This document shows, one piece after another, positions 2,130 through 56,090 of a DNA stretch of 64,000 nt; the stretch's first letter is position 1; each line of letters opens with the position of its first letter. Origin of the DNA: Tetradesmus obliquus (lineage: Eukaryota; Chlorophyta; Chlorophyceae; Sphaeropleales; Scenedesmaceae); assembly GCA_030272155.1 (NCBI GenBank), contig CP126196.1, positions 2,046,001-2,110,000 of the forward strand. The letters are read 5' to 3'. A model generated the notes under the pieces. That model saw only the letters and a list, made by a program, of their open reading frames with translations. It made no database searches and was not told the DNA's origin. The translations under genes were made by a program, and so were the position numbers.

Positions 2130-5100
2130 CTTCAGGTGCAGTGGTAGCAGCCTACCAAGCGCCGCATCAAGGGCAGCAGCCGACACAATTCTTTGCCATC
2201 ACACAGAAGGTCAAGGCACCAAAGCTGGTCAACCCTGCCAGGCTGCCAGTCTGTTACAATGCCACAGAGATGTCACAGCTCATCGGCACTAGCATCAACA
2301 GCAGATTTGGCATCATCAACACAACAATGGAGACAACGTACCTGCAGGTGGGGTGCTTACGGTGCTGGCTGCGCTGCTTGCTGCCAGCAGCACACAGCAG
2401 CACTGCAGAAGGCTATGGCATTGCATGCAAGCAGCAGTAATAACATGGTAACTGCATCGTCATTGAAAGGCGGCCAGCATAATATCTTTTAGACCTGTGC
2501 GGCGCATCCTGCAGCTGTCATGCTTATTCAACCGGCCTGGCAGCAAGCCTTGGTTTTGGATTCATCGCACACCGCAGGTGCGTTATGGCTTGTATTTTGT
2601 ATGCACCAGACGTGCGCCTTGCATGAAATGCAACAAGGGGCTGTGTGATCACTGCCTGCTGCTCGCTGCTGTGGCCTGTGGCTGCTTGCCGCAGGTGGTG
2701 GATGAGTGCACCTACACCTCACTGATTAGCTACAACGGCAGCGCAGAGGCCAAGGAGGCGCTGCTGGCAGCAGCAGACAGCAGCAGCCTCTGCTCAGTGC
2801 TGGACACGTGAGTGCCACACACACTGCGGCCTGTACTGCAGCAGGCACTGCTAGCAGGCAATGACTCCAAGGTGCAGCGCTCATGCATGCACGTGAATTG
2901 GCCTTAGTATCCTGGACGGCTGTGGCACGTGGTGCTAGGCATGGATACAGTAGTCTATTTTGCTGTAAGAGGAAGGCAGCAACTCAAGAGACAGCTCAAA
3001 GCAGCGTGCCATTGCCTGCATGCCGCTCCTGGCCACCGCTTGACAGGTATCGCGATTGCACATGACAGCAGCCCACATTTTGGTGCTGCACTACATGTAC
3101 ATGCAGAGCTGCCCCAAGTCACACTGAGTCATGCTCTCCTTGCCCCGCACCATCTACATATGGCCCCATGTTGGCTGCAGGTACTGCGCAAAGGTGTTTG
3201 GCCCTCCCAGTCAGTACGTGCTGCTCTCCACTGGTGGTGACGCCAGCCCTCCCACACCCATCATCCAGGAGTTCAACTGCGTCCAAAAGTACTTCCAGCA
3301 GCGGCTGGACCACTTCAGCAGCAGTGACAGCCGCAGGTTCAAGCAGATGTACTGGGTGAGCGCCTGATGCATTACATCTGCTTTGAAAAGATTAGACACA
3401 TCTTCCACTTATCAATGTGTGGCAAGGCATCCCTGACCCTGCATGCCCACAGCTGCAACTGATATATGCCGTACGCTATCAGCTGCGACATACGGCTGGG
3501 AAGGTGAACCTGACTAGCAAGCTTGACTGCAACCAGGCATGTGGCTTGCGACGCTGCTGCTGCTGCCGCCGCTGCTGTCTGGCTGCGCAGGTTTGTGACG
3601 GTGCATGGCCCAAGAGCAAGTCAGCGCAGGTGAGCAGGCCCACCGCAGGGCAGGCACGGCGGCCACCTGAATTTTGCAAAGTTTAATCAATGCATAGGCA
3701 GCAGAGCAGCCTTTGTCAACAGCTGCCAGCGCATGTGTGCGGCCTATAGCCATTTGGCCACTGCAAAAATTTCTGCATTGCAGTTGTGCAGGTTTGGCTG
3801 TGTTGCTACGTTGTCTGTGCGCTGCTGCGGCAGTCACCCAACATGCGGCTGACTGTATGTATCTCTTCCGCTGTGACTTTTGCACCTTTCGCCGTGCCTT
3901 TTGCAGGCGCGGCATGGCAATGTGGTTGTGTTCTTGGGTGGCGAGGGCCCGCTCAGCCGGCCCCAGCGCCCCATCATATTTGAGAATGCCAAGCGGCTGC
4001 ACGCACTGGTCATCCAGGTGGAGCACAGGTGAGCCGCGGAGCTGCTCTTTGAGACAGCAAGTGGTGTGTACCTTCTTCAATGGTGCCACACATGTAGCTA
4101 TCCTCTCTCTGAACTGCATTGACAGCTGTTAGCTGTCACCTGAGCTTTATTGGAAGTGGTGATCCAAGAAGAGCACAGGTGGGGTAGGGCTGCCCTTTGA
4201 GACAAAAACCCAACATAATGACAACTATAACCTGTCAGCTGAAAACGCCAAGCGGCTGCATGCACGGGTCATATTCAGGCACAGGTAGGGTGTTGCTGCC
4301 AGCAGTGCCAGCAGCTGCTGGTGCTCTTGGTGGTTGTCTGTCACTCAAGATGGGATTCTGTCAAAGCTGGCTTTCTGCGACAGAGGGGCTTACAAAGTAG
4401 CGTGCAATGCCAGGTGTCTGGCAGTTAGGGTACAGGGCTGCAGCTGCTCCACTAAACATTTATCAGGAGCAGCATCATGGCGAAAATGACTCAAGCGGCA
4501 AAATCCAAACGCTGCTGCAGGTACTATGGCGAGAGCATGCCATTTGAGCTGCCAGGCAACGCCACGCAGCTGCCAACGGAGCAGTACAAATGGCTGACGA
4601 TCGAGCAGGTCATTGAGGACAACTCAGCAGTGGTGGCAGCAGTGCGGCGGCAGATGCGGGTGCCGGAGAAAGTCCCAGCAATGGCAATCGGCGGATCGTA
4701 CGGTGAGCCTTGCTTGACGAAGTTGATTGGATGCTTCATGGTGCATCAGAGACACAAACCTCTGCTGCAGCAGAGCTCGTCAGCAAATCCTGGCATGGTG
4801 GGTGGTCTGATCTGCATGTGACACCGGGCTTGAGCCTCCAGCAGTGTTGCTGTTGTGTGCATCGGTGCATGTGAATCTGACACCATGTTGCGTTGTCCTG
4901 CTATGTATGCTGCTATACTGCTCTGCTGCATTCCGCTTTGCAGCTGGCATGTTGGCCATATCAGCCACAATGCTGTCTTCATTCACCTCTGCTGCTGCGC
5001 TTCTGCACCGCTGCACTGCTGCACCGCTGTGCTGTTGTTGTGTTCACGCACTGCAGCTGGCATGTTGGCCACATACCACAGAGTGCTGAAGCCGCACACC

Positions 5101-6204: not shown

Positions 6205-6243
<39 letters not shown>

Positions 6244-7854: not shown

Positions 7855-10800
7855 TCATCGTCGCGTCTCACGCACATCCATCGTCTTGCCGTCCACAATG
7901 GCAAAATGCTTGAAGGTACACGCGTCACCCTTCTTGCAGCCAGCCGCGGTGGCAAAAAACTTACACTCGCGCTTGCTTCGCCTCCAATCCTCACGAACAT
8001 GCCCACCCCCATGGCCCCGATACCCTCCACCACCACCTTCATACTGAGGCCGGTCCCACTGCTGCTGCCCATACTCGTGCCTGCCCATATGCTGCATGTG
8101 CCCCTGCTGCTCATAGACGTGCCCTGGCTGCTCGTACTGCCCTGGCTGCGGCTGCACATTCAGCATGGGTGGCTGGGGCTGCAGCTGCTGCTGCGGCTGC
8201 ATAGGTGCAAGCACCATGCCAGGAGGTAGCTGCAGCGGCTGCCCTTGCTGCCCCTGCACCACTGCCATCATCCCATTTGGCAGCATGATCTGCATGCCAG
8301 CTGACATGCCAACTACCTGTGGTGCACTGCCTAGAGGCATCTGTCCAGGGGCAAGCTGCACTGGCTGCTGCTGCATCATCGGCTGCTGCTGCTGCTGCTG
8401 CTGGAGTGGCTGCTGTTGCTGGGGTTGCTGCAGCCCCAGCATTGCTGCTAGGCCGCCCTGAGATTGCAGCGACTGCAATGCTTGCAGCAGCTGCGCCTGG
8501 CTGTTGCTGTTGCCGGCGCTGGGCGGCCCTGATGAGGCAGGTCCGCCAGGCTGCCCGCTGCCATAGACAGGCGCCGGCGGTCCGCCCAGCTGCTGTTGCT
8601 GCTGCTGCTGAGGAATCGGCTGCAGCAGCAGCTGCTGCTGCTGCTGCTGCGGTGGTGCTGGCTGCAGCCCAGGCAGCTGGTGCAGCGGCGGCTGCTGCAG
8701 CACAACCCCTTGGCCAAACTGCAGCACCTGCGGCTGCACCTGCTGCATAGGCACCGGCTGCTGCTGCAGCGGCGCCTGCAGCACGACTGGCTGCTGCTGC
8801 TGCTGCTGCGGTGGCGGCGGCTCCGGCTGCTGCTGCACGACTGTGTTGAGCGGGATGATCTTCACATTGCGGTCGTGATAGGCCACATTGAACAGTGCGT
8901 TTGGCGGCTGCAGCAGCTGGTGTGACTCCTGGGGCTCCCCTGGAAGTGGGGGTGGGGCTGAGGCCAGCTTGGTGAGCAGCTGCGGCAGCGTGCGCGTATG
9001 GCGCTGCGCCTCTGTGCTGTCTTCGCCGGCAGCAACCTGCAGGCCAGATGCAGGGCAGCAACGGCAGGCACACCGCGCAGGCACGCGTATGTGTGAGGGG
9101 AGCATTTAGATGCACGCTGGCAAGAGCGCATGCCGTGCGCAACAACCCTGGAAACGCACCAAGGCAAAGTATGCACACTGCCAAAGCGGTCACGCATCCA
9201 GCAGCCGTCAACACACGAAAACTTGTAAGACAGCAAACAACCCTAAGCCTCAGGCGCCGCGCCGTACCACTCCATGCTGGGCTGCATCGCCACACCCCAA
9301 CTACATGCAGCCAATGGCCAGCGCCCTCTCCAGCACACTGGCAAAAACACAAGGCATGCGTGCAATAACCTTGAAAACGAACAGTCAAAAGCAAAACAAG
9401 GCAAAGCACACAGAACAACAACTAGTGACGCACATATCCAGCCTTCCCACACGTGAAAACGAACATACAGCGAACAATACCAGCCCCCAGCCTGAACCCA
9501 CCTGCCAAGCAGGGTCCAGCGGCACCTCTGGCGGCGCCCCATACCACTCCATGGCGGGCTGCATCGCGTCCACCTGCTGCCGCAGCCGCGCTGCCGCCTC
9601 CTCAGCCTCCCGGTGCTGCTGCTCGATGATCTGGCGCTCCCGCTGGTGCTCCATGCGCGCCGCCTGGTCGAATGCGGCGTGCGGGTGCTGGTGTGCGGCG
9701 GCCAAGGCCCGCAGCTGCTCGTCTGTGAGGTGCGCGTCCTTGCAGGCCTGCAGTGCGGCAGCCGCAACAAGGAACACAAGAGTCTGAATGCAGGAGACGA
9801 TACGCAGCAGAGAGGCGGCCAGGGCCCGCAGCTGCTCGTCTGTGAGGTGCACATCCTTGCAGGCCTGCAGTGCGAACAGCCGCAACAAGGAACACAACAG
9901 TTTTGAATGCAGGAGACAAAATGCAGCAGAGAGGCGGCCAGGGCCGGCAGCCGCTCGTCTGTGAGGTGCGCGTCCTTGCAGGCCTGCGGCAACGAGCAGG
10001 CGGCCAGAGGAATCAGGGGTTACATGTGACAGGACGTTGCAAGTGTTGCACAGCGGGCCATGTAGATGGCTTGCTGTGCTCAGAGCATAGCCTGACCGAT
10101 TTGCAGGAGTACTAGCAACGGCACAAAGCAGAGATGCAAAGGGCCAGGGCAGGGACGGCAAGCGCCCATGAACCTGATACCTGCGCGACTGTCAGGTGCG
10201 CACTGTACCTTAACAACAGCCACCTGAGTGCTGCGTCACGCGCTGCTGCTGTTCAACCAGTCTCACCCCTACAGCCCCGCAAGACGATTGCTGCTGCTAC
10301 AGCACTTGAGTAATATGATTCGCACCACTGTATCCTCACCTGTGCGGGAGGGTCCTCCTTGACAAACCAGCGCACTGCCACCAGCTCATGCTCAGCCTTC
10401 CAAGCCACGCGCTTCACAGGCCCCTTGCGCGCACGCTTGGCAGCAGGCTCGCCACCCTCTGCACCCTCTGCACCCCCTGCTGCTGCTGCTGCTGCTGCTG
10501 CTGCCGCAGTGCCGCTGCCGCCGCCAGGCTGCACCCATGACCCTCCCAGCAGCGCTGAGATGCTGCTGCTGCTGCCGCCGCCTTCGCCAGTGCCCGCTGC
10601 TGCTGCTGCTGCGCCGGGCCGCGCACCTAGCCCTGCTCCAAACTGCCGCCGCACACCAGGCAGGCGGCTAACACTACTGGTGGTGGGGCCGCGAGATCCA
10701 GCACCACCCGCTGCTGCTGCTGCTGCTGCCGCCCGCTTAGCCGCCGCTGCTGCTGCCAGAGGGTGCAGCAGCTTGAGTGTCACCTTGAGTGGGGTGTCAC

Positions 10801-16203: not shown

Positions 16204-19200
16204 ATGAGCACAGGCGTGCAGCCGCCCGCCAACCCCGACCCCCTACGTGAGACCAGCCGCTACACCAAGGTCGCCGACCTCAGCCATGGCAGCTTCGGCT
16301 TTGTGCAGCTCGCGCGCAACACAGAAACGCAGGAGCTGGTGGCCATAAAGTTCATTGAGCGAGGCGACAGGGTGAACAGGTGCGGCAGCAGCAGCAACAG
16401 CAGCAACAATGCGGTACAGACCGCAGCCAGAGCATGCAAGACCAGCTGTGGCAGGAGGGACGCGGCTATTGCCCTGCGGCACCGAGATAACAGCAGCAGC
16501 AAAAGTTTGGAACCAGCATCGTTCATCCTGTCCTGGCCACACATAATGGCAATGGCAGGATGCGGCAGCAGCTGGCATGCGCAGAGAAGGCAGGCATGTT
16601 GCTGTCTTAGACATCGGTAGGCAGTGGCCTTATCAGTTAGGACAGACCAAGGTGGCAGCCTCCCCAGCAGCAATGGACGTGTGCGTCCCATGGTACTTGC
16701 AGCAGCCTTGCAGCTTTACCATTAGCATCATCCGCAGCAGCTGCAGCTCCTGGACGCCCCACCACTGAAATTTGTGGGTACTGCTGCTGCTGCTGCTGCT
16801 GCAGGTATGTGGAGGCGGAGATCCTCAACCACCGCATGCTGCGCCACCCGCACGTGATTGAGTTCAAGGAGGTGTTCATCACCAGCGAGTACATCTGCAT
16901 CGCCATGGAATTTGCCTCCGGCGGCAGCCTCTTCACGTGAGTGCAATGGCACAGGAGGTTTTGGTTGCAGGACAGCCCTCCGCTGCCGGGCCGCTGGGCT
17001 GCAGGCAGTGTGTTGGAAGCATTGTGATACCAATGCTATAACAGCAGCTGCCGCAGCTGTTGGCTGTGCATTGGCTGCCTGGGGCATGCAGGTGGTTTGC
17101 ATTTTGGTGCGCTGACGTGTGGCCTGCTCTGCCTTGCGGTGCGTGTGTTTGCGTCTGCCGCTGCGCCTGCAGCTACGTGCAGCGCGCGGTGCGGCTCAAG
17201 GAGGCGGCCAGCCGCTGGTTCTTCCAGCAGCTGATCATCGGCCTGGACTACTGCCACAGGCGCGGCGTGGTCAACAGAGATATCAAGCTGGAGAACACGC
17301 TGCTGCAGGTGGGCCGAGTGGAGGGGATGGCGGCAGTTCAGTCAGTCAGCGTGAACCGTTAGCACAGCTGCCTTTGGCATGCAGGCAGCAGTCAGCAGCA
17401 GTAAAAGGGTTCATCGTGCTGGAGATCAGGCTGCTGCATGTGGAACAAGCAGCAGCAGCCATTGCAGCAGCAGCAGCAGCACTGGTGCTGTGGCTCAAGC
17501 GCCCCGCAGTGCTGTCGCAGCGCAGCTCGGCTACTTCACGTGCGTGTAGCATGCATGGCTGTTGTGAAGCGTTGACTCTGATGGTGACGAGTACAGGCCA
17601 GCTGACAGTGGACAAGCCGGCATGCAGGGTTACAAGCATGTTGCACATGGCGGCACCTGTGCGAGGTACGTGCCAGTGCAGGGAGCAGCTGATAGCAGCG
17701 CCTCTCATCATGCTACCATTTTGGCTTCCGTGTGCCGCTATCTATGAGTGGTTTCCTTGTGCTGTAGGCAGCTGCTGACATCATGCTGCTTGCTTTGCGG
17801 TGTGCTGCCTGCAGATGGTGCAGGGCCTGCCGCTTCCGCTGCTGAAGATTTGCGACTTTGGCTACAGCAAAGCACACTTCATGAGCGCGCCCAAGTCCAA
17901 GGTGAGGGCGGCAGCATGGCTTCAGCGGCAGCGTCAGCTGCGGGCGTGACAGGGCAGCACAGCTGCTGTACCGTTGCGTGGCGGCCATGGACTGCAGCAG
18001 TAGCAATGTTGTGTCCGCGTCGCACTCCTGCGTTTGTTGATTAGAGTAGGCGCATGAAGTAAGGAAGTTGCTAGCTGCCAACTGCTGTCTGCTGGGATCC
18101 AGACAGCCATGTTTCTTCGACCCTGTTCCATCCTGTCGCATCCTGTCGCACGCACCACCACCACCACCACCACCTCCGCAGGTGGGCACGCTGGCGTATA
18201 CGGCGCCAAATAATCCGCGCCACGGACAACTACGATGTAACATTCTGTTGACTTGATCAACCCTGTTTGACCCTGTTTGACCCTGTCCTGCAACCGCAGG
18301 TGGGCACGCTGGCGTACATGGCGCCCGAGATCATCCGCGCCACGGGCAACTACGACGGCAAGAAGGCCGACATCTGGAGCTGCGGGGTCATGCTGTACGT
18401 GATGCTGTTCGGGCAGTACCCCTTTGAGACGCAGCAGCCGGGCGGGCCCAAGCTGGAGCCCGACAGGCGCATCCGCACCATGATGGACCGCATCGTGAAC
18501 ATGCAGGTGCGTGGATGATGTATCGCTGTTGTGCGTTGCTGAGGCTGAAAGGTGATTTGTAGGAGCTGCCCGCATCGTTGCCATTTTGCACTTGGTGCGT
18601 TCAGCAGTCTGCCTTGCAGGTGTATTCTTCATCTCTGCTCTCTCCTCCTGGTCTGCTGATGTGTGGTCTCTGCAGCGGTCTATCCCCCAAAGCACCAAGA
18701 TCAGCGCCGATTGCTTGGCTGTGCCTCCTTAGCAATGCTGCTGTCGCCCGTGTGCTCACTCTCCATCTGCTGTTGTCGACTCGTGTGCTGCTGGCGTGTC
18801 CTGCACTGGTCCATCCCCAACGGCATCGAGAACAGCGCTGTTGCACTGCCCAGTCTGCGCATCACACTGACCCCTGCGTGCTCTCCTGCTCCTCCTGTTG
18901 TGTGGTGATGACGTCCTGCTCTGCAGTGGTCCATCCCCAACGGCATCGAGATCAGCGCCGAGTGCCGCGACCTGCTGTCGCGCATGCTGGTGCGCAACCC
19001 CGACGAGCGCATTACCATGGCAGAGATCCACAGGCACCCCTGGTTCATCGCAAACCTGCCCGTGGAGGTGCGCAGGCTGATCGTTGCATCAGTGATTTGC
19101 AGAGGCTGAGTGCCGTGCCATGGTTGGTTGCCTTGATTGCCGTGATTGCTGAGAGTGCCACAGGCACCCCTGGTTCATAGCAAAGCTGCCCGTGGAGGTG

Positions 19201-23335: not shown

Positions 23336-23373
<38 letters not shown>

Positions 23374-37136: not shown

Positions 37137-37183
<47 letters not shown>

Positions 37184-37764
37184 GTCCAGGTGGGCTTCCC
37201 GCGGCGCGACCCTGACCGGCTGCGTGTTGCGCTGGACAACACGCACCGCCTGATCTGGATCCGCAGCCTGAAGCAGAGCCGTGTGGCGCGCCTGGGGCAG
37301 CTGCTGGGCTTTGCAAGGGCCACCAGTGATGGCGTGTTCAGCGCCACCATCTGGTGAGTGGGGCTTCGGAAGCTGTGGTTCTGATGTTGCAGGCAGTCAG
37401 AGCAGTGCTGTGGAGTGCTGGGTGGTGTGTTCTGGAGCTCGGCTGCTTTGCTACACAGCAAGCATCGCCGCGGTGGTCATGGTGTCATGCATAACGCAAG
37501 CCTTTGCTCAGCAGCGCTGATGCAGCTAGGGCAGCGTGGCGCGCCTGGGGCAGCTGCTGGGCTTTGCAAGGGCCACCAGTGACGGCGTGTTCAGCGCCAC
37601 CATCTGGTGAGGCGCCAGGCGTGCTTGCTTTTGTGTTGCCTGCTGTGCCTTGCTGTGGTGTTGTGCTGACGCGGCGCGCCACCAGCGGCGGTGCTCGGCG
37701 TGTTCAGCGCCACCAACTGGCAAACGCCAGCAGTGAGATGTGAGACTCAGCAACTGAGGTTGTG

Positions 37765-37808: not shown

Positions 37809-38804
37809 AGGGATGTTGCCGTGTCGCCGGCGTGGCAGCGCAGCGGGCTGGGCAAGGGCATGATTGAGCGGCTGACACAGCAGCTGGTGCAGGACGGCAT
37901 CAGCACCATCACGCTCTACGCAGAGCCGCAGGTGAGGGGGCGTTACTGCTTGCAGCGCTGCTGGGTGCGGCATTGTTTTGGAGACATCGGTAGTGTTTGA
38001 GGGTCCTGGCAACAGCTGACAGCATCAGCACCGTCGCGCTGTATGCACAGCCGCAGGTGAGGGCCCTGGCTGTTTGTGGGCATAGCTTGTGATATGGTAA
38101 GGGTGTCTGCTGCTGTCGCACCATCTCTGACTGCATGTTGGGTCCCGGCACCAGCTGGTGCAGGATGGCATCAGCACCATCACGCTCTACGCAGAGCCGC
38201 AGGTGAGGGGGCGGTGCTGGTTGCAGCGCTGCTGCTTGCGGCATTGGCTGAAGAGACTTCGGTAGTGTTTGTGGGTCCTGGCGCTAGCTGACAGCATCAG
38301 CACCGTCGCGCTGTATGCACAGCCGCAGGTGAGGGGCGTGACTGTTTGTGGGCATAGCTTGTGATAAGGTGAGGGTGCCTGCTGCTGTCGCACCATCTCT
38401 GACTGCATGTTGGGTCCTGGCACCAGCTGGTGCAGGATGGCATCAGCACCATCACGCTCTACGCAGAGCCGCAGGTGAGGGGGCGGTGCTGCTCAGCGGC
38501 ACGTTGTGTGTGGCGGGAGGGGGTCCCTGCTGCGTTTGGCAATTCTTTCAGCGCAGGGTGGTGTGTGGGTCGGTCCTGGCACCAGTTGGTGCAGGATGAC
38601 ATCAGCATCAGTAGGATAAGTTTGTTCCAACACACACCCTCCTTGCAGAATGCGCGTGATGCCATTGTGTTGCTGCTGCTGCTCTTGCTGCTGCAGGTGG
38701 TGGGCCTGTACAAGAAGCTGGGGTTTGTTGATGACCCTGAGGGCATCCGGGGCATGGCCTTCCAGCGCAAGCGCAAGGACAAGAAGGGCATGGGCCTCTT
38801 CTGA
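35886..38804 (+). CDS. Plastid GNAT N-acetyltransferase (NSI/SNAT type)
   Basis: Exons with matching phases: 35886-36084, 36447-36640, 37190-37353, 37811-37931, 38697-38804; 261 residues. The N-terminus (MALISGIGTMNG...SLAGSSRRCLKVAATET) is Ser/Arg/Ala-rich and suits a chloroplast transit peptide. The catalytic part reads GIKITELNELFEKVGFPRR, LIGMARATSD-like LLGFARATSDGVFSATIW, DVAVSPAWQRSGLGKGMIER (acetyl-CoA binding motif RSGLGKG), TITLYAEPQVVGLYKKLGF and DDPEGIRGMAFQ. This order matches plant plastid GNATs described as serotonin N-acetyltransferase and as NSI/GNAT2 Lys/N-terminal acetyltransferase. The true substrate cannot be told from sequence. Exons 3 and 4 follow (TGC)n tracts. Introns 2-4 and the 3' flank hold echoes. 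Confidence 0.88.
37072..37139 (+). repeat. Acceptor-side echo of GNAT exon 3
   Basis: CCAG followed by VSFPRRDPGRLRVALNNTHR copies the real start at 37190 (VGFPRRDPDRLRVALDNTHR). It reads in frame for 23 codons with several synonymous differences, then runs into (CTG)n. Confidence 0.88.
37528..37727 (+). repeat. Donor-side echoes of GNAT exon 3
   Basis: A near-identical copy of the exon end (VARLGQLLGFARATSDGVFS plus ATIWTGAGG-like donor) lies at about 37533-37610. A shorter degenerate copy (GVFSATNW) lies at about 37675-37725. Confidence 0.88.
38020..38612 (+). repeat. Alternating donor-side echoes of GNAT exon 4
   Basis: The exon end TITLYAEPQ (real end 37931) recurs at about 38155-38203 and 38427-38475. 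A second variant (TVALYAQPQ) occurs at about 38026-38058 and 38292-38328. The order real-B-A-B-A implies that a composite unit of about 270 bases was later duplicated. A truncated copy lies at 38583-38612. Confidence 0.88.
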
Positions 38805-38845
38805 GCCAGTGGCAGCAGCAGCAGCAGCGGAACAGCAAAGCAACA

Positions 38846-39392
38846 GAGGTCATGGGCCTCTTCTGAGCCAGTGGCAGCAGCAGCAGCAGCAGCCGAACAA
38901 CATAGGAATAGGAGGTCATGGGCCTCTTCTGAGCCAGTGGCAGCAGCAGCAGCAGCGGAACAGCAAAGCAACAGAGGGCATGGGCCTCTTCTGAGCCAGT
39001 GGCAGCAGCAGCAGCAGCGGAACAGCAAAGCAACAGAGGTCATGGGCCTCTTCTGAGCCAGTGGCAGCAGCAGCAGCAGCGGAACAGCAAAGCAACAGAG
39101 GGCATGGGCCTCTTCTGAGCCAGTGGCAGCAGCAGCAGCAGCGGAACAGCAAAGCAACAGAGGGCATGGGCCTCTTCTGAGCCAGTGGCAGCAGCAGCAG
39201 CAGCAGCAGCAGCCGAACAACATAGGAAAAGGAGGGCATGGGCCTCTTCTGAGCCGGCAGCAGCAGCAGCAGCAAGGACAAGCAGGGCATGGGGCTCTTC
39301 GGAGCCGGCAGCAGCAGCAGCAGCAGCAAGGACAAGCAGGGCATGGGGCTCTTCGGAGCCGGCAGCAGCAGCAGCAGCAGCAGCAGCAGCCA
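38846..39392 (+). repeat. Nine 3'-flank echoes of the GNAT last exon with (CAG)n spacers
   Basis: The terminal codons GMGLF plus stop (real 38788-38804) recur about every 52-73 bases near 38849, 38916, 38977, 39038, 39100, 39163, 39236, 39287 and 39340. The first seven keep TTCTGA. In the last two TGA is GGA, so KDKQGMGLFGAGSSSSS reads through. Confidence 0.9.
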
Positions 39393-41304: not shown

Positions 41305-41835
41305 ATGCTCCACTCAACGAGGAGTGGGAACCCCAGTCAGGATGCACCCTGTCGAACAATGCCCAACACACAAGCCCAAAGCAATGGACGAATCAATCAA
41401 AGAACCAGGCGCCCTGCCATCAACAGCAGAAGTGCTGTTGGTTGCGTCAAAGCGCGCTAGCCCAGCACATCAACATTTCGTTTCATGCAGCATTTAATAT
41501 AGCATGCAGCATGCCAAGGCACCTCGAGCGCTCGTGTGCTAGCAAAAGCAAGTGCCACAGGACGCCTGCTTTCACTGTGTGTACCAAAGCCCAACACAGC
41601 ATGATGCATGCCATCCCAAAACAAACACATAAACAGCAGCACAGCGCTCTTCCGCACAGCTCTCATGCACAGCTGGCCGCCGCCCTCCTAACCGCCTCAC
41701 TCAGGCAGCATCACTTCAATGCACTTGTCAACAGCACGGATGTGCATGCCTAGCATATCCACACCCCGTGCTGCCGCAGACAACAAACTGCAAGGCCGTA
41801 CACTTGCAGACATGCTGCGTGGCTCACTCCGCATC

Positions 41836-41897
41836 TTCCCTGCCTGACGCCCAGGAGCCCTCACTCTGCCTGCTCTTGGCATCATGCGGCAAGCATC
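41836..41897 (-). repeat. 3'-flank echo of the DHHC last exon
   Basis: About 60 bases copy the coding end (real 41945-42010, encoding [18 protein letters not shown] plus stop). The copy differs at a few bases and lies just after the real stop. Confidence 0.88.
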
Positions 41898-41947
41898 ATC
41901 AATGCAACCATACTGGCCAGAGAACATGCAATAACTCGTTTCCTGGC

Positions 41948-43638
41948 TCAATCCGCATCTTCCCTGCCTGACGCCCAGGAGCCCTCACTCTGCCTGCTCT
42001 TGGCATCATGATACTCCGTCTGCGCCGACACGCCAGCACCAAGCCCAGCTGCAAGCTCAGGCCCCGCCCCACCTGGCTGCTGAGGTTGCGCCACGCCTCT
42101 AGGGCTAGTGAGACCGAAGTCAGCGTGCTGCTGCAGCTTGCTGCTGCTGCTGCCCCAGCTGTTGCCATTTGCGGCGGCAGCAGCAGCAGCAGGAAGCTCT
42201 AGACCCACATGGTCCGGGGACACCGCAGCAGACCCTACTGCTCCACCACCCAATGGCGAGAACGTGCGCGGCAGCTGCTGCGCTTGCTGCTGCCTGGGCG
42301 CCGCTGCCCACTGCTGCCCCGCCACACCTACACCTTGCATCGCCTGCATCCCAGGCGCTGCCAGCTGCTGCTGCTGCTGCTGCCGCACATTGTGTGTGGG
42401 GCTGTGTGATGCTGGGCTCTGCAAGCCAGGGCTTTGCAGCCCTGCCAGCTCTAAACCCTCACTGTTAGGGTTGTAGTAAGGGTTGTGGGACCATGCTGCC
42501 GGCTGCGGGCTTGGCGCATTGCTGCTGTTGTTGTTGGCTGTGTTTGTGACTGCGCGCTGGCTGTTGTTTGGCTCGCCAGTGACCATGTTGTGCCCGCTGC
42601 GCGCGTGCTCGCGGGATATGGGCGCTGCACTGCTCTGCTCTGTGAGGGAGTCGTAGCCCTGCAGCAGCACACAAGACACACATGCATGACATAATGCAAC
42701 AGACGCATGCAGCAGAGACATGCCAATGACAGAAGCATGCAGCAGAGACATGCCGGACAACACGCAGGAGCAGCTGCAGGCAAATGGACAGGAGTGCCAG
42801 CCTCTGAAGCAAACACAAGGAGCGGCTTGTGGCCCCGGCAGCACCACCAGTGCGCGGGCATGTGCGGTGGCAGAGCAGCTGCAATGACAGCCAAATGGCC
42901 GAGTGCACGCAAGTCCCTTTTTAAAAGGGCCTTTTGACTATTCACACCAGTCCTCAGCACCACCTGATGTGGTGCTTCTACAGCACCTTGTGTTGCTTGC
43001 AGATGCTGCAGTGTGACAAGTGCGACAATGCGAGTGTCACAGCTGCAGAGTAACACAGAAACAACCACTGAGAAGCACAAATTGACCTCAGATTTCACAA
43101 AACCCACCTGCATTGGCAGCACAGCCTCCCTGCTGCCCAGCACACACCCAGTCAGCACAAACCACTGCCACAACGCGTCAATAAACTTCTGCCAGTTCGA
43201 ATCAAAAACTGCAAGCAGCGCACCTGCATTGGCAGCACAGCCTCCCTGTTGCCCAGCCCTCCCAGCCGCACACGCTCCTGCGCTGCAGCCACTGTCGCAG
43301 CAGCGGCAGCAGCAGGGTCCACCCCGCCCAGCGCATCTGCAGACGCAGCTGCAGGGCTGCCTGCTGCGTAGCTCTGCTGCTGCTGCTGCTGGTGGTTGAG
43401 CTCCGCCATGTTTGCACGCATGGAGCTGCCCAGTGCTGCGCTGTTCCACTCGGGGTAACCCATCTCCACTGGCAGCCGCTGCACCTCATCCACAAACGCC
43501 CTGCAGCCATACCAAACATGCACACCGCAAGTCAGGCACAGCACAGTCAGCTCATTCTAATGCACATCAGAATAGCATGCTTCTCCACTGGCAGCCGCTG
43601 CACCTCATCCACAAACGCCCTGCAAGCACATGCCAGGC

Positions 43639-43689
<51 letters not shown>

Positions 43690-43793
43690 TCAACTCAATG
43701 AATTGCATGCTGGCTGAGAGTAGCGAACAACATGCAGGTCCACCGGCAGCCGCTGCGCCTCATCCACAAACGCCCTGCAGGCACATGCCAGGC

Positions 43794-43828
<35 letters not shown>

Positions 43829-44212
43829 GTCATCTCATTGAACTGCATCCTGGCTGAGAGTGCCGAACAACATGCAAGTCCACCGGCAGCCGCTGCGCCT
43901 CATCCACAAACGCCCTGCAGGACAGCCGCGCCGCACAGCAAGCCAGGCACAGGCAGCTAATTCACTTGCAAGTTGACAATGGGATTGCATGGTGGCACCA
44001 CTGCCCCGTGACATGCACCTGAACTGGCACACGCGAACACACAAACGATGTCCACCGCTCATCTCTGAGCAACCCCGCGGCTGGCCATTAGCACCGTGCT
44101 CTGCGCCTCACCTGAACTGCACCTTGCTGGGCGGCACGCGCACGCACCACACGGAGGCGCAGTTGCTGAAGAAGCCCTCGTCATAAGGATTGGGCACCTG
44201 GTTGTGGTTGTA

Positions 44213-44244: not shown

Positions 44245-44751
44245 TGATTTCTGTTACCTTTAGGACACCTGCAAACCCAAATGCAGGTGTTTCAACAGCA
44301 GCATTCTTATGTACGGCCTGCCCATCACCCAAAGAGCCTGCCCATCACCCAAAGAGGAAGTTGTCTGATTGGCGGCCACCAGCCAGGTGTGGAAGCCGCT
44401 GAGGCACCGCAACACAGAGTGCGACAACACATGCAGCTGCGCAACTCACACCCCTCCTCCTCCTCCTCCTCCTCGTCACAACGCCCCTCCAGCAGCCAAA
44501 GGTGTGTGTACAGCCACCACAATCCTATACCTGATCAGCATCTGATGTGTCAAGATCACCACATCAACAACCTTTGTCTCAAACCGAAGTCACAACCGCC
44601 AGCCGGAAGCTCACCTGAAGTTCTCGTAGGTCGTCTGGTTGGTGGCCACCAGCCAGGTGTGGAAGCCGCTGAGGCCGCACACAAACCAGAAGAAGATGAA
44701 GGTGAAGATCATCAGCGCAATAGCGGCACCGCTCTGGCCTGAAGCAGCAGC

Positions 44752-44782: not shown

Positions 44783-46004
44783 CGCAGGGATCATGAGCAA
44801 GGCACATGTTAAATTGCGCAGCAACTCAGCGTGTGCGGTGCATGATGTACATGTGGCCGCCAGCTGCCACAATGCTGCTCTGTGAAGCCAGCTGGTTCCA
44901 TCAAGGCACATGCATGGCAACAACCTGCCACAGCAGCAGCCACACCATCGCAACTGGCAGCTGCCTGCTGATCAGCTGTGCTTGCTATTGCTCACACCAA
45001 ACGCACCCAGCGTCTGCAGCCACATCAACACATCTGCGCTGTGAACTTTGTGCTATTTGTTGTGCTGTCAACGCACCCAGCGTCTGCAGCCACAGGTTGT
45101 TGCCGAAGCTCTCCTGCGAGCCGGGCTCCACGGCAGCAGCCAGCTCCCTGTGGCGTATGAACAGGCTGCCCAGCGACACGCCAAACGTCCACGCGATGTA
45201 CACGCTGGTGCTGTAGATGAACATGAGGAAGGTGCGGTAGTTGCGCTGCAGGGTGGCAGGGGCAGTGCAGTGATAAGGAGGGCGTGGATAAGGTGCAGTG
45301 AAAAAGTGCAGTGATGCTGGTGCTGTAGATGAACATGAGGGAACTGCGGTAGTTGCGCTGCAGAAAATATGCAGCAGCAGGGAACGGTAAGCAGGACGGC
45401 AGCCGCAACACAAAGAAACGGATGTGAACTTCACAGTTGGGAACCATATGCAGCTAGTGTTTCACAGCGCGGGGCAATGCACCAGCACAACAGCATGATT
45501 GTGTGCTGCTGTCACCCGGCAGGCAGCAAGCGCAAGGCACTTGAAAAACCCAATTAACGACTGGCGGCTGCTCTGCAGCCACCAGCCCTAAATATTCGCC
45601 GCTGCCAGCACCAACACACTCACCTTGCCGACTGTGGTGCCCACCCAGGGGCAGTGGTGGTCAAAGCGCTCGATGCAGTTGTCGTTGACCGAGCAGTGGT
45701 GGGCGCGCGGCGGCTGGAAGAAGTGGCAGGTGTCGTTATAACGCACCGTCACGCGGTGGCCGTTGACCATAACGTCCCTGGCCCTACGGGGACACATCAT
45801 CAGCATGAGCAAAGCAGCACATGCACAGGTGGTTGAGCACGTGATCAATTCCCACGGTGGGTTGTTGGACCACACCATTTGATGAGTTTGATGCTGCAAG
45901 ACTCCCCTTGCTGCTGCTCAGCAGGCGGTTCTGTAAATGCATGCTAATGCTCACAGCCAGCTACACACATGCCTGCCATACTGCATGAACCACCAGCTCT
46001 AACA

Positions 46005-46045: not shown

Positions 46046-47617
46046 AGCTGCCTGCTTGCTTGCCTCCCATCGCTGACACCCGCACCCATCGCTACTGCAA
46101 GCGCGAGGCAACAGCGCGGCGTGTCTTGCACCAGCTATGCCTGCTGCTGTGGCAGCCGCCACCCCTCCATGCTGCTGCTGCTGCTGCTGCTGCACAATCA
46201 CCTGCTCCTGCTGCTGCACTAACGCCTACTGCTCCTCCTGCTGTTACGCTATCGAGGCCCTGCTGCTGCTGCTGCTGCTCACCTTGGCTTCCTGCCGTGC
46301 AGCCTCTCCTCGTCCGGCTCCTGGCGCTGCTGCACAATCACCTGCTGCTGCTGCTGCTGCTGCTGCTGACATATCACCTCTTGCTGCTGCACTATCCCAC
46401 CCTGCTGCTGCAGCTGCTGCTACTCTATCACAGCCTGCTGCTGCTGCTCACCTTGGCTTCCTGCCCTGCAGCCACTCCTCGTCCGGCTCCTGGCGCGGCA
46501 GGATGCCCGGGTCCCTGCAGGAGGTCATCAGCAGCATGGCCGCGCAGAACACCGGCAGGATGCAGCTGCGGCAGGCGATGTGGTGGCGGTGGCAGTGCAG
46601 CAGTGCAGCAGAGCAGGGTTTGTGTTGACAAGTAGTGGGATAAAGTGGAGCGAGCAGCAGACTACGCTTGTGTGATGTGAAGCGGTTGCCGGCAGAAGCA
46701 TGCCTGCCTGCACATCAACAGCTAGAGTGTGCCTGGCATCTGTTTGTCGATTGGTTTTCGCCTCAACTGACAGTTGCGTCGCAAACATGGAGCAGAGCCC
46801 TTGCAGGACCAGGTCTGCTGCTGCTGCTGCTGCTGCTGCGGATGCTCACCTGACGACCATGATTGCTGGCGTGACCTTGCGCGACATGTAGGGCGCCACA
46901 AAGACCAGGAACACCACTGTCGGTGCGATCAGCAGCAGCAGCGAGCCCATGCCTGACTTCCAGCTAGGCCCGGTCACGCAGTGGCCCCAGCAGAAAAAGC
47001 GCTGCAGGCATCACAGCAGACAACACATGGCAGCGCCGCATCAGACAGCAGGCACAGGGTGGTGCAGTGGCCACAGCAGAAGAAGCGCTGCAGGTGTGAA
47101 AACGTATAAGGCGGCAGCAGCACAGCACCACGTCAGACGCACAGAGATGCAGCAGCAATAATGGTCCTGGACAATGGGGAAGCGCTGCGCGTGTTGGCCC
47201 ACATCAGGCAACGAGATACCGGAGCATGCACGAGGACGTACCACCAGTGCTACAACTGTTACTGCTCGGACACAAAAGCTTTCAACAGCTGTGTTGTGCC
47301 GTTTGTGTGCTTCAACAGCTGTGTTGTGCCTTGCTTGGTACTGCGGCACACGTGCTGCATCTGGCGGTATGTAGAAAGGCAACAGAGGAAGGTGGCACAT
47401 TGCTGCTGGATTACATTAGCACCAATTGTGCACTGCTGAGCTAGCAACCCTCGTTGCCCCAGACGAAGCAGCAGCAGCTTGATCACAGCTGATGAATAAC
47501 GCAGTACAGACAGAGTGCACAAATGACAGATAAGTGCATGCGCAAGCTCACCTCATTGCCTTGCCACTGCTCATACACACGCAGCCTCTTCTGTGCTCCC
47601 CTTGGCTCCTTTGCCAT
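41948..47617 (-). CDS. DHHC-type protein S-acyltransferase (palmitoyltransferase)
   Basis: Minus-strand exons with matching phases: 47617-47552, 47001-46850, 46565-46452, 45783-45624, 45245-45077, 44738-44615, 44213-44112, 43500-43224, 42658-41948; 624 residues. It starts [20 protein letters not shown], as in plant PATs. Two membrane helices ([34 protein letters not shown]), then DPGILPRQ, then the Cys-rich domain [32 protein letters not shown] with catalytic Cys at about 154. Two more helices follow ([38 protein letters not shown]), the TTYENFR motif typical of the family, [10 protein letters not shown], and a long disordered Gln/Pro/Ser tail. The enzyme attaches palmitate to cysteines of substrate proteins at Golgi or plasma membrane. 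The long tail probably governs targeting. Most introns carry echoes. Confidence 0.94.
43104..43142 (-). repeat. Donor-side echo of DHHC exon 8
   Basis: It copies [11 protein letters not shown] plus GTGGG (real end 43224, [11 protein letters not shown]), downstream of the true donor. Confidence 0.75.
43567..43925 (-). repeat. Three acceptor-side echoes of DHHC exon 8 with (CAG)n
   Basis: The exon start [12 protein letters not shown] (real start 43500) recurs near 43620, 43775 and 43920, each after CTGCAG or TTGCAG. The two outer copies read [12 protein letters not shown]. Long (CAG)n runs at 43638-43688 and 43795-43825 lie between copies. Confidence 0.88.
44355..44403 (-). repeat. Donor-side echo of DHHC exon 6
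   Basis: It copies the [11 protein letters not shown] segment (real about 44670-44636) together with downstream sequence, in the following intron. Confidence 0.7.
44998..45026 (-). repeat. Donor-side echo of DHHC exon 5
   Basis: ACGCACCCAGCGTCTGCAGC (plus strand) occurs here and at the real exon end (45071-45090). It includes the CTGGGTGCGT donor. Confidence 0.75.
45313..45369 (-). repeat. Acceptor-side echo of DHHC exon 5
   Basis: It copies CTGCAGCGCAACTACCGC through FIYSTS (real start 45245), with a small change ([13 protein letters not shown]), about 115 bases upstream on the minus strand. Confidence 0.85.
46272..46330 (-). repeat. Donor-side echo of DHHC exon 3
   Basis: It copies the exon end [12 protein letters not shown] plus GTGAGCAGC (real end 46452) in the downstream intron among (CTG)n runs. 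Confidence 0.8.
47056..47100 (-). repeat. Acceptor-side echo of DHHC exon 2
   Basis: It copies CTGCAGCGCTTCTTCTGCTG (RFFCCGHC) upstream of the real start at 47001 (RFFCWGHC). Confidence 0.8.
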
Positions 47618-49734: not shown

Positions 49735-50065
49735 AGTCGGCGGCAACCACGAGGCCACCAACTACTTGTGGGAGCTGCACTATGGCGGCTGGGCAGCACC
49801 CAACATCTACTTCCTGGGCTATGCAGGTGCGCCTGCTGGACACTTTGCTGCTGATGAGGCAGCCTTGGTCACATGGACGAAATGCCTATCGATTGATAGC
49901 AGAGATGGATTAACGTGCGCTGACGCAACAATCCTCAGGATGAAAGTAAATGAGCCGCAACGGACTGCCTGTCTCCAGCCTCACATGCATGTGTGGGCCA
50001 GTGAAAGCAACATATTGGGAGCCCTGCTGTATACCGTAGCTGTGAGCTTTTGGCCGACTGCTCAG

Positions 50066-50098
<33 letters not shown>

Positions 50099-53000
50099 CA
50101 GGTGCTGTGCGCTTTGGGGGCCACCGTATCGCAGGGCTGTCAGGGACGTACGTGGCGCAGGTGCGCTGTGTGGCTCCTGCTGCTGGTGCTGTAGGTATTC
50201 TAAACTTGATATAGTTGTACTGCATTGCTGCTCAGCAACATTCAGACAAGGCGCGCTGCAACAAGCGTGACATGTTGTACCGTGTGCTGTATGTGCCCTT
50301 GTGCAGCACTACCACATGGGTCACCACGAGAAGCTGCCATATGACGAACGTGCAGTCAAGAGCGCCTACCATGTGCGGCAGCTACACGTGCACAGGCTCA
50401 TGCAGGTGCGGGCACATGCAAAGCTCTCTGCTGACACACAGCCACGACAACCACATTGCAGCCATTGGGCTCTCCAATCTGTCAGTAAACGATACCCCCT
50501 TCTTGTGCAGAGGCATGTTTGGGCTGTGAATCTTCAGAGGCAATCACCCAGTTGCAAGGCGCATGCAGGTGCAGCGGTCCAACAGCATCTTAGCTGACCG
50601 AACGGCAGCTGCAACTGTGTCCACTGCTGCTGAACACCGCTGCGTGTGCTGTTGGTTTGATGGCGTGCAGCTGCAGCAGCCCACCAGTATCTTCCTGTCT
50701 CATGACTGGCCCAACCTCATCACGCGCTACGGCAACAGCAGGTGGCTCTTCAGCAAGAAACCCTACTTCCAAAAAGAGGTGCGCTGCACTTGACATCTGC
50801 GCCACATCTGTGCAGCAGTGTTATACCATACAGGCGGTACTAGCGCAGATGTTGTTGCGGTGCTGCTATGCAGCTGCTGTTGCCGTTGATGCTGATATGC
50901 ATGCTGCCGCTGCTCAACCCCTGCTGCTGCTGCTGCTGCAGGCTGAGCGTGGTGACCTGGGCAGCCCGCCTAACCAGCAGCTGCTGGAGGTGCTGCAACC
51001 AGACTATTGGTTCTCAGCACACCTGCATGTGAAGTTCCCAGCAGTAGTGCCTCACCGGCAGCAGCAGCAGCAGCAGCAGCAACAGGGCCAGCAGCAGCAG
51101 CAGCAATCGCCTGGCAACAACCAGAAGGCCACGCGCTTCCTAGCCCTTGACAAGTGCCTGCCTGGCAGAGACTTCCTGCAGGTGAGCGGCTGGTGCGTGT
51201 GGTGGTAGGGGACAGTGTGGTTTGTGCATCATGCACAGGCTGTCGCTGGCTTGTTTTTGATGCTGCAGTATGTCTTTGATGTGCATGGCTGGTGTGTGCT
51301 CTGCAGAAGACATTTACCCGGATGTTTATGATGACTGTTTGGAGGCAGCAGTGGCATCTACAATAAGCGTCTCAACAACCACAACATGGCTGCATGGTTG
51401 CAGGTAGTGGAGCTGTGGATGTGCAGGGGCCTCTGAAGCTGTGCTATGATGCTGAGTGGCTGGCACAATGACACATCCATGTAACAATCCTGAACGGTTG
51501 TCACAACTATTATCCATGCAGGTAGTGGAGCTAGATGTGCAGGGGCCCCTGGAGCTTTGTTATGATGCCGAGTGGCTGGCACAATCCATGTAACAATCCT
51601 GAACGCTTGCAACAACTGTTATCCATGCAGGTGGTGGAGCTGGATGTGCAGGGGCCTCTTGAGCTCTGTTATAAGCAAAACTTCCTGTAAAATCTGCAAG
51701 ATGTATAGCGAACTCATGTGACCCCCTGCACCTCATGCAGGTTTTGGAGCTGGATGTGCAGGGGCCCCTGGAGCTCTGTTATGATGCTGAGTGGCTGGAT
51801 TCACATGCCTCTTGACATTGTATTTTCACCCTCAAAACCTCAAGCATGCCATTTCAAACCTCATGCAGGTAGTGGAGCTGGATGTGCAGGGCCCTCTGGA
51901 GCTCTGTTATGATGCTGAGTGGCTGGCGGTGCTGCGCAGCACACACCAGCTCATGAGCACAAGCAGGACAGCGCCGCCGCTGCCAGACACACGCACAGGT
52001 GCGCAGAGCTGCTGTGCGCAGTTGATGTCACCACGTGATGTGTGCTTGAGACATCTGTGTTGAAGCAACGGGGTCTTTTCGCAATGGATCCACAGTAATC
52101 AACATGGCGCATTGTGCGGTTGAGCTGCCAGACATTGCACAGATGGACAGGAGCAGCTGTCGTGCTTGAAGCCATGTTTGTGCCGAGATTTGTGCAAGCT
52201 GCTCCTGCAATTGTCACGCACAATAGCACTCACAAGGGAGACACACACATAGCAATGTCCTGCTATGTGTCCGGCACACCTCGCATTTTCATCTGCAGCT
52301 CCCCTGCCTTTTCTGACTGCTTGCCCCTGCTTATTCATTCTCTTCACAACCCGCCGCACAGGCCCCAAGCCGGAGGACGTGGCCTTTGTGGAGCAGCTGC
52401 TGCAGCAGCGCGGCAGCAGCAGCATACCCAACAACTTTGCGCCCACAGCACCAGCTTACAACCCAGCTGCAGGCCGCGCCAGGGGCAACATGCCTCGGGC
52501 TGACCTGCGCAACCCGCAGACTGAGGCGCTGCTGGAGATGCTGCAGCTGCCTTATAATTTAGACCACGCAGCAAACAGTAGTGGCGCAGGCAGAGCGTGG
52601 GTGAACAGGCCAGGTGGGGTTTGCGCCGTGGTATGGTTCACTGCGTAGGTGTGCATGCTTGTGTGAGGAGTTGATAGGAGCACCCTTCCTAGTACATGCA
52701 TGTCGTTGACAAATAGATCGCAGTATGCTCGTTGTTACTGTGCACTGCCAGCAGCCACCGAACAGATATCCTGACACGTACTGCTGCTGCCAATGTTTGT
52801 TGATTTTCCTCGCGCTGCTGCTTGCAGCTGCCGCAGCCACTGGTGGTGGCACTGCATACAGGGCTCCGCTGAACCTGCTGTCGCAGCAGCAGGGCAACCC
52901 AGAGGAGATAGACATCGAGTCAGATGACTCAGATGGGCAGCCGGCAGCAGCAGCAGGCGCAGCAGCTGCAGCAGCAGCAGCAGCAGACACGTTTGAGATA

Positions 53001-54007: not shown

Positions 54008-56090
54008 CTACTGGCCAGTAGTGCCACCCATGCGCTTCACCATCCCATTGCTGAACCCAGCCTCAACAGCAGCAGCCGCAAACCCAAACAGCAGCATGCA
54101 TTGCGCGGCATACAGCGCGCTGTTGCCGATCACCACCGCACTGAACACATCGCCCGCATCAGCAGTAGCCTGAATCACATCTGCAGCACCCAGCGCCTTG
54201 ACTAGCCCAAACGCAGCCACCGCCCCGCCCCTCAAATGCATATTTGTTGCATCCTCGCGCACGGCGTAACGGTATGTTACGCCAAACAGCAGGCAGCCGG
54301 CAATGCTTGCGCCAAGAGACAGGATGCTTTGCAGTCCTGGCTCTGAAGCAGACAGCAGGAAAGGCAGGGAGCCTGCGAGGCCGCCTGCTGCTGCCAGTGC
54401 TGCTGCCTTGCCTGACTCAACGCGATCGCCGTCCTGCAAGCATATGATGTAGACGGCAACACACGCATGCAGTGTCAGCAGCGAGGCGGCTCATACACTG
54501 CAAGCAAGCACACGCCCATGGTCTGTTTAGTTTGCGCTACGTCTGCCATATAATGCTGGCCAATGCTAGCCCATGTGGTGTACATCAAACACATAGTTCA
54601 TCATGTTCTCACTGCTGTACATTGCTGCATTGTTAGGCGCTCTCAGCCAGCAGCATCACCTGGCCCACTGCCCTGCTCATGAAAACAGGTCAGTTCTAGC
54701 CTATGTGTTGTAGGACATATGCAGAGCTCATCATGTTCTCACTGCTGTACATGGCTGCATCCTTATACACTCTCAGCCAGCAGCCTCACCATGCCCACTG
54801 CCCTGCTCAGCCGCCGCTGCTCCTGCATCGCTGAGCTGTACTCAATCTCAGCAGCCTGCAGCAGCCGCTCCGCTGCCGCCACCTCTGCCTCTGCCATCAG
54901 CTGGTCGGCGCGGTTGCGCGCTGCTGCTGCTGCCGACGCGTCCTGCTCTGCTGCTGCCTTCATGGCGTCCTGCAAGCACAAAGGAAGCGAGCAGAATGCC
55001 ATTTGCTGCGGCTCTTCTGCTGCCACATCCACACAGCATAACTGCAACCAAATTCCTGCAGATGCATTGTTGCACATCAGTAGCACAAACTGCCTCCGAC
55101 ATGCATGCAAGCACGCCAAAAGTCCAAGAAACGGCTGATGGGGCCGGGTGCTACTGCTCTGACAGCATGCGCAAAGCTGCTGCTTTGCTCAAAATCCTAT
55201 ATTAATCCTGAATCCTGAATTCAGCCCCACCTTCATGATGGCCTCCAGCTCCTTCTCCGCCGCCTTGGCCTTCTCCAGGCGCACCACTGCCGCCTCGTAG
55301 CGCTTGAGCTGCGCTGCTGCCTCGGGGTCGGCTGACAGCGCCTGGCGCGCCAGGTCAGCGAGCCCAGCCTCCAGCGCAATAGCCTCCAGGGCCTACACAA
55401 AATCAATAAATAATAACATTTCAATACGTTCAAATTTATATGGAAATGCTCAAAAAAGACAAGGATGACAACCATAAGACATGGCGAACCAGTGACAGCC
55501 GTGTGCAGTGGCGGTTGCAGGTGTGGTGACCCAGGAGTGTGCTGCTGCCTGCAGCTGCTGACAGTGAGCCGGGCGAACAAGACATATGATAAACACACCT
55601 CCAGTGAACACAGTAAGGCAGGATACGCGTTCAGCAAGTCATGCCAGGCACCATCATGTGTGCGCCATGCAACACTTCAGGCAAGGCTGGAACAGCATGA
55701 GGGTGACGCTGCACTGTTGCATGCTGTCCAAGTGCAGCAGTGGAGCACATGCAGCTTGCTGCGCTAAGTTGATAACAACATGATTGAGAGTATCAACGGA
55801 CACGCATGCAAGTTGATTCCGCCTGCCGCTCCAGCGCCAACAGATGCAGCTGAATGTTCAAACTTCTCCAACTTGGCTGCTGTCAGCACCAGCAGCACTC
55901 AATGATCAGGGCAGCACATGCTGACCAAGTCAGCACCCACCTTGTCTGCTGCAGCTTCGTCTGCTTGCGTGCTTGCAGCTGCTCGGCTAAGCATGCGCAG
56001 GTGTTGCTGCCGGGCTGGCAGCAGCCTGAGGCTTGGTCTGCTGCATGGCCGGAGGCACTGCTGCTGCTGAACGGAGAAAGATGCCTGCAT
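54008..56090 (-). CDS. Plastid-targeted coiled-coil membrane protein, unknown function
   Basis: Minus-strand exons with matching phases: 56090-55941, 55392-55231, 54969-54790, 54433-54008; 305 residues. The N-terminus (MQASFSVQQQQCLRPCSRP...SRAAAS) is a typical algal chloroplast transit peptide. Next comes an Ala/Glu/Lys/Arg-rich helical stretch of about 110 residues suited to a coiled coil (AAQLKRYEAAVVRLEKAKAA; ADQLMAEAEVAAAERLLQAA). The last exon encodes a Gly/Ala-rich hydrophobic domain with about three membrane segments (LAAAGGLAGSLPFLL; ILSLGASIAGCLLFGVTYRY; ALYAAQCMLLFGFAAAAVEA) and the phrase GVTYRYAVREDATNMHLRGG, which looks conserved. Thylakoid or envelope location is inferred. I cannot assign a function. 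Confidence 0.78.
54617..54692 (-). repeat. Donor-side echo of plastid membrane protein exon 3
   Basis: The segment around CTGCTGGCTGAGAG and the following TCATCATGTTCTCACTGCTG (real copy about 54725-54795) is repeated about 130 bases further into the intron. Confidence 0.75.

Follow-up and report, generated by a model that had tools for sequence, protein, structure and literature searches.

Short duplications that lie close to their source have been described in several forms. Repair-mediated proximal duplications are closely linked short duplicates with a spacer between them, and in the relevant passages of the human study 278 of 824 donors were intronic and 4 were partial exon/intron sequences, counted only inside transposon copies and with pairs less than 50 bp apart excluded (PMC2671141). 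Small tandem duplications made by end joining at breaks with 3' overhangs are short and head to tail, as the passages on them state (PMC8355091); intron gain by tandem genomic duplication involves exon sequence, according to the parts of that report that treat it (PMC4974935); and introners add sequence to introns genome-wide, as described in the corresponding sections of their source (PMC9860276). Each of these resembles, in the respect named, a pattern in a 64-kb stretch of DNA, the window (bases 2,046,001-2,110,000 of its contig, in a genome of 104.66 Mb on 17 contigs): partial copies of exon ends, here called echoes, that lie nearby in an intron or past a stop codon. We tentatively read echoes as short tandem duplications that arose or expanded again between alleles so strongly diverged that only their coding sequence is still alike.

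Exon-edge copies are confirmed as real, and they occur genome-wide, beyond the window. Self-BLAST of the window, the self-alignment that the original prediction had proposed, returned 71 repeat pairs, 70 of them direct, and alignments show eight genes, lying between 9.7 and 51.9 kb, with copies at acceptors, donors and stop codons; at least nine genes had been claimed, and the ninth (about 4160-4290 and 4942) is more diverged and was recognised by eye only. The sample as a whole (264 kb) joins the window to 20 stretches of 10 kb drawn from all 17 contigs and holds 225 direct pairs no more than 3 kb apart, with raw offsets peaking at 100-150 and 220-280 bp. Filtering (identity >=85%, length >=30 bp, offset 45-450) left 97 direct pairs, 25 head to tail and 72 spaced, meaning that the aligned part is shorter than the offset, and some of the spaced pairs are outer copies of head-to-tail arrays. 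Unit sizes from a hand-picked list of 52 (the smallest offset per family) had a median of 119.5 bp and an interquartile range of 113-136, with 90% falling in 98-154. One to nine repeats had been proposed; about nine copies are found only in the stop array at 38763-39391. A genome search with two exon-piece probes, its best candidates scored, found no copies outside their own arrays.

Of the spaced pairs, 60 are non-redundant. We oriented 43 of these by eye, and the other 17 (which include those at window 9697, 22337, 22450, 23219, 23466, 24552, 30293 and 44360) were omitted from the flank and codon-position analyses. The subsets comprised 41 pairs for the first flank alignment, 36 for codon position, 36 for the residual-homology test and 20 for the pyrimidine tract. 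The exon part spans 30-111 nt in 41 of the 43 oriented pairs, at acceptors, donors or stop codons, and the copy extends 3-17 nt into the intron in 31 of the 41 splice-site pairs (median 7 over all 43 values). Consequently, of the unit first proposed, exon plus adjoining intron, the exon part is copied and the intron usually is not recognisably so. This rarity of recognisable intron copying had been missed in the original prediction, as had the silent-site signature described below.

Copies and exons differ mainly at silent sites. In the 36 pairs with a clear frame, differences fell at codon positions 1, 2 and 3 in 28, 25 and 88 cases. Over 65 of 99 copies (identity >=85%, length >=30 bp, at least one change; 22 of the 34 excluded copies were below 85% identity), 152 differences were silent and 103 were replacements, or 60% silent, and with all 99 copies, weak matches included, the counts were 242 and 199 (55% silent). 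The expectation used a mutation spectrum taken from noncoding satellites and assumed a copy that drifts freely beside an exon that changes silently at an equal rate; its maximum is 41% silent, against the 60% observed (p = 9e-10 for all copies, which are non-independent, and 7e-6 with one copy per exon, 37 exons). Two arrays illustrate the pattern. The stop array of a presumed MgtE-like gene holds copies of two types, as grouped by eye, arranged X X Y Y Y X, with all but the first copy past the stop, and the types are separated by 5 fixed coding differences, all at third codon positions. In the DBR1-domain gene, three echoes (offsets -124, -238 and -347) show 2, 3 and 5 silent changes against the exon and 0 replacements, while a fourth shows 3 silent changes, 1 replacement and 2 indel columns. 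Because a copy in an intron or past a stop is not expected to be protein-constrained, such divergence would have arisen earlier, in coding versions. It is most likely that much of the copy-exon divergence arose while both versions were coding, and the silent-site bias points to diverged alleles as the simplest source of silent-differing copies.

The reading that we favour, if only tentatively, takes echoes to be short tandem duplications of about 120 bp because of their unit size, the head-to-tail arrays and a weak homology on the intron side of acceptors. These duplications would arise between diverged homologues during repair or unequal exchange, and those that disrupt exons would be lost to selection. 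Many echoes would then join diverged versions of one gene, presumably alleles of an outcrossing or diploid, highly variable population, as the silent-site bias suggests. If coding sequence is alike where versions meet and introns and untranslated regions (UTRs) are not, only duplications that reach coding sequence stay visible: these may persist and re-expand by unequal exchange anchored on the exon part, whereas intron-only or UTR-only duplications would have no detectable homology between versions and would not re-expand. Such selective visibility would produce the apparent rule that confines copies to coding edges, whether these are splice sites or stop codons. A stronger form, possible but on balance unlikely, is that edges are hotspots of a fixed duplication of ~120 bp that needs coding homology between diverged alleles, and that recombination between haplotypes writes fossil alleles into introns and 3' UTRs genome-wide.

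Echoes had been said to follow one rule, with acceptor copies upstream of the exon, donor copies downstream and last-exon copies past the stop, and this was borne out by an analysis that did not presuppose it. With strand taken from gene models and the most coding-like flank taken as the real exon, 41 pairs kept the rule and 3 broke it (P = 8e-10); 16 of the 60 pairs had no gene model, and the rule-breakers were L014 1966, L013 7925 and window 38168, the last being a pair of two echoes. The rule is geometry plus selection, since a tandem duplication across an acceptor spares the protein only if the downstream copy is joined to the exon, and the reverse holds at donors and stops. The stop-codon arrays at 31755-32485, 38763-39391 and 41820-42010 act like splice-site arrays, so splicing is neither required nor the common cause. 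The suggested role in splice-site choice found no support, given the likeness of stop edges and offsets divisible by 3 in 20 of 60 cases, which is chance level. The same count led us to reject the echo as an in-frame alternative exon as a general rule. No sign of a function was found, and echoes are most likely functionless.

Arrays were also collected with Tandem Repeats Finder (TRF; period >=18, match >=85%), which is blind to exons and so avoids a search bias toward conserved exons. It reported 49 arrays in the sample, 22 long (79-345 bp) and 27 short (18-66 bp). Three satellites, one in stretch L005 and two in L017, were removed from the long class; the satellite arrays at L017 16-6039 and L005 25-1135 have units of 279 bp x 14, 345 bp x 5.5 and 191 bp x 5.9. 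Judged by eye, 18 of the remaining 19 long arrays contain a coding edge, and the other (L014 1549) begins at a GC donor; the intron there is likely GC-AG, and its donor is the start of a 244-bp tandem array. An edge is expected by chance at 0.32 over all placements and at 0.48 inside gene models, giving P = 8e-9 and 1e-5 for 18 of 19, or 2e-5 and 0.0045 for a strict reading of 15 of 19; these figures are approximate because the gene models were home-made with our own gene finder. Seven of the 18 were examined for a coding frame on the expected side, which was clear in four and weak in L009 241, L009 1572 and window 30293. Strong donors (score >6) stood at the pair end in 20% of 60 pairs versus 4% of 2,388 shifted controls, and acceptors in 28% versus 22%, a weak contrast.

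Short arrays showed no such bias (edge in 3 of 27 versus 0.08-0.12 by chance), so the reported boundary bias holds for the class near 120 bp and is absent from slippage-type short repeats. By the gene models the remaining short arrays are 11 exonic, 7 intronic and 6 intergenic, and among the exonic ones the unit is divisible by 3 in 9 of 11. Repeats inside exons thus do exist. Copies at 44360 and, apparently, 9248 end short of the donor. Exon-internal minisatellites lie at L003 1060-1179, L005 7049-7173, window 59581-59664 and elsewhere. TRF found no intron-only array of ~120 bp in the 264-kb sample. Selection removing exon-internal events, an explanation offered at the outset, is part of the answer and does not account for these missing intron-only arrays. 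Of the freshest arrays (>=93% match, n = 9), 8 lie at an edge (one weakly supported) and 1 abuts one.

The edge bias gives the main rival its case, namely that some property of boundaries, such as paused transcription, R-loops or chromatin, drives ~120 bp duplications without any diverged alleles. It would explain why 18 (strictly 15) of 19 long arrays, the freshest among them, sit at edges and why the unit is so tightly near 120 bp. We consider it doubtful, however, as stop codons within a single exon behave like splice sites with no splicing machinery involved, and the silent excess is left unexplained.

The flanks of the copies bear on the remaining explanations. Exon parts that are 90-100% identical adjoin intron parts that are mostly unalignable, whereas duplication of whole units followed by drift would have given both parts the same age. 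On the intron side, some homology was still detected in acceptor pairs (8 of 19 at p<0.05, Fisher 8e-9) and was marginal in donor pairs (2 of 17, Fisher 0.04), and exon-side flanks were not significant (acceptors 1 of 19, Fisher 0.10; donors 1 of 17, Fisher 0.41). Same-type and dinucleotide-shuffled nulls preserved the acceptor signal and nearly erased the donor signal. The pyrimidine fraction before the acceptor in the 20 pairs was 0.68 for echoes and 0.70 for real exons, versus 0.47 at 13,478 GCAG sites, and for the most part the tract of the echo shows no recognisable homology to the tract of the real exon. Insertion of spliced complementary DNA was rejected because many donor copies include GTGAG-like intron bases, and the lack of a GT start to the spacer, after the acceptor copies inspected, led us to reject a new intron flanked by a long target-site duplication.

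Repair capture, in which an exon-edge piece would be copied into the intron 40-90 bp away by synthesis-dependent strand annealing plus end joining and leave a unique spacer, is improbable. The process is known in vertebrates, as passages of PMC2671141 indicate; spaced pairs make up 72 of the 97, a count that includes some outer copies of head-to-tail arrays; and when the 60 spacers were compared with the 264 kb, 104 of 129 non-local matches were CAG/CTG-rich and the other 25 were short. The residual intron-side homology of acceptors favours a head-to-tail origin instead, and the edge bias would go unexplained, as human donors in those passages were intronic in 278 of 824 cases and partial exon/intron in 4. 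We equally disfavour, and by a shade more, old tandem duplications under neutral decay, in which the rule would be geometry and the exon part would stay visible longer because one copy is constrained. Persisting intron-side homology in part of the acceptor pairs and replacement changes in many copies fit this account, but exon parts that stay 93-100% identical next to intron parts which, though supposedly as old, are mostly unalignable, a silent excess above the model maximum and the lack of intron-only arrays of this size in the sample do not, and only introns that evolve far faster than copied exon sequence would rescue it. Gene conversion from exon to echo, keeping the exon part alike while intron parts drift, would suit the sharp end of identity at the splice-site consensus and the several copies 100% identical in their exon part; it predicts no silent excess between copy and exon, unless the alleles were diverged anyway, and as an excess is observed it seems quite improbable. 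An assembly artefact, with both haplotypes of a heterozygous genome written in tandem, would match the allele-like silent pattern and a related strain described in part of its report as likely diploid, yet it is highly improbable given more than two mutually diverged versions in the five-copy DBR1 array, about nine copies in another array and a tightly fixed unit size.

Several points weigh against a source in diverged alleles. The alleles themselves were never seen and enter only as a putative source, and membership of the Scenedesmus group, behind the support from a diploid relative, is itself presumed. For the DBR1 array, four or more diverged versions would have to have met at a single site. 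The 103 replacement changes are spread over many copies, and an exon silent rate faster than the copy rate would mimic the signature. Edge bias in the freshest arrays counts in the same direction, since divergence cannot hide intron-only arrays there, so duplication between diverged alleles needs a secondary, exon-anchored expansion. Identity reaches 100% across 31-54 exon nt in three spaced pairs, two of which have intron flanks without significant alignment; this is more extreme than typical allelic distance predicts. The donor-side homology is marginal, as given above, and an acceptor weight matrix failed to separate echoes from random sites (0.17 vs -0.53, standard deviation 3).

Relatives offer some context for the allelic source. 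Parts of one report describe a related Scenedesmus as "likely diploid", with 1,606 alternate-haplotype contigs and 103.4 Mb haploid (PMC7955037), and the assembly of Scenedesmus DOE0152z is 208 Mb versus about 109 Mb for that of its sister strain UTEX393 (PMC5552973). G+C contents of 52-63% appear for Scenedesmus strains in the relevant part of PMC7590803; the window has ~57%, and CAG/CTG runs are plentiful in it. Among homologues, a transcript-derived protein is 92% identical and one labelled Chrzof1 is 83% identical. These homologues, together with genome size and G+C content, suggest a green alga close to Scenedesmus. A transcript-derived relative protein, P0001, has each edge of the GNAT exons once, and a relative's open reading frame (ORF), P0101, has an identical exon peptide and reads 72 residues upstream without the echo; the GNAT echo of the window has stops in the other two frames (by eye). 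Together, P0001 and P0101 suggest that at least one echo is absent from a close relative. If echoes are other alleles, one haploid assembly would record past allelic diversity and inter-haplotype recombination gene by gene, and echoes would continually supply additional splice sites and make introns grow. They also trap gene predictors; our own gene finder took GNAT echoes for exons.

Table 1. Echoes and arrays located in the window, in order of position.
Position	Strand	Feature	Gene	Remark
9697..9987	-	acceptor-side array, unit 117-119 bp, 2.5 copies	TFIIS/Med26-type domain	
18176..18355	+	acceptor-side echo, offset 118	kinase-like	
18801..18958	+	acceptor-side echo, offset 120	kinase-like	
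22304..22828	-	last-exon/stop-codon echoes, offsets 114-165	ankyrin-repeat-like	stop read by eye
22880..23040	-	acceptor-side echo, offset 116		
23466..23666	-	array at acceptor edge, 5.2 copies of a short 38-bp unit		edge read by eye
24422..25135	-	acceptor-side array with several diverged copies at offsets 96-252		
26402..27368	-	donor-side array of 269-281 bp units	MT-A70 domain	
30293..30621	+	probable donor-side array, 2.5 copies of a 132-bp unit	MgtE-like	coding support weak
31559..31753	+	acceptor-side echo, offset 139		
31755..32485	+	last-exon array, real exon tail + 5 copies past stop	MgtE-like	
37018..37257	+	acceptor-side echo, offset 120	GNAT acetyltransferase	
37275..37611	+	84-bp donor-side echo at offset 253		
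37878..38610	+	donor-side array of 271-bp units, containing inner echoes (offset 126-139)		
38763..39391	+	array at the stop codon, about nine copies of 54-62 bp		
41820..42010	-	67-bp stop-codon echo at offset 124, identity 98.5%	DHHC-type	
43105..43257	-	donor-side echo, offset 116		
43463..43921	-	acceptor-side array of 3 echoes with the real exon head		
44360..44675	-	exon copy ending about 15 nt short of donor, offset 270		
45204..45363	-	acceptor-side echo, offset 112		
46170..46499	-	donor-side echo, offset 176, within CAG repeats		
51399..51927	+	acceptor-side array of 4 echoes with the real exon head	DBR1-domain	

Gene identities in Table 1 come from domain and family searches for the Med26/TFIIS-type, MT-A70, DBR1 C-terminal domain and GNAT genes; the kinase, ankyrin, MgtE and DHHC names are ones that we presume from peptide motifs, from which we also take the gene at 2.1-6.9 kb to be a peptidase S28. 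Near-tandem pairs at 54558-54809, 23219-23426 and 9248-9567 (offsets 130, 147 and 277) have no firm assignment to a coding edge, and the last apparently ends about 23 nt short of a predicted donor. Elsewhere in the window, a self-complementary stretch of 162 bp (34904-35065, a 91% palindrome) lies at the end of a long ORF (33465-34916, minus strand) that has no Pfam match. CAG/CTG runs are very frequent, for example at 1960-1999, 6192-6247 and 43640-43688, and the gene finder learned an acceptor consensus that consists of a CTG run with GCAG at its end.

In the titles and abstract openings of part of the openly accessible literature, we found no description of an exon-edge-copy pattern. The statement that no named system fits is nevertheless too strong, since both short tandem duplications and repair-mediated proximal duplications have been described before. 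Like short tandem duplications, echoes form head-to-tail arrays (TRF arrays up to 100% identical, such as 137 x 2.4 and 132 x 2.5), a likeness only partly shared by most two-copy pairs. Their placement is not independent of gene structure, with 18 (strictly 15) of 19 long arrays at edges, and the passages on end-joining duplications describe no such edge preference (PMC8355091). Proximal duplication by repair would insert the copied piece at a distance from its source and leave relatives with an empty site; spaced pairs are common (72 of 97), and one relative ORF lacks one echo. The human cases resemble echoes in having a few partial exon/intron sources, in the passages that list them (PMC2671141), whereas echoes differ in lying at coding edges in nearly all arrays, in a unit near 120 bp and in their silent excess. 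Introner or transposon origin was rejected after 60 spacers and 60 copies compared with the 264-kb sample revealed no shared element. In the intron-gain model a duplication creates a new intron inside an exon, bounded by duplicated AG|GT. With echoes, in contrast, the copy would simply be added to an intron or 3' UTR already present; coding continues beyond one copy only, as at an existing edge, in 41 of 44 pairs.

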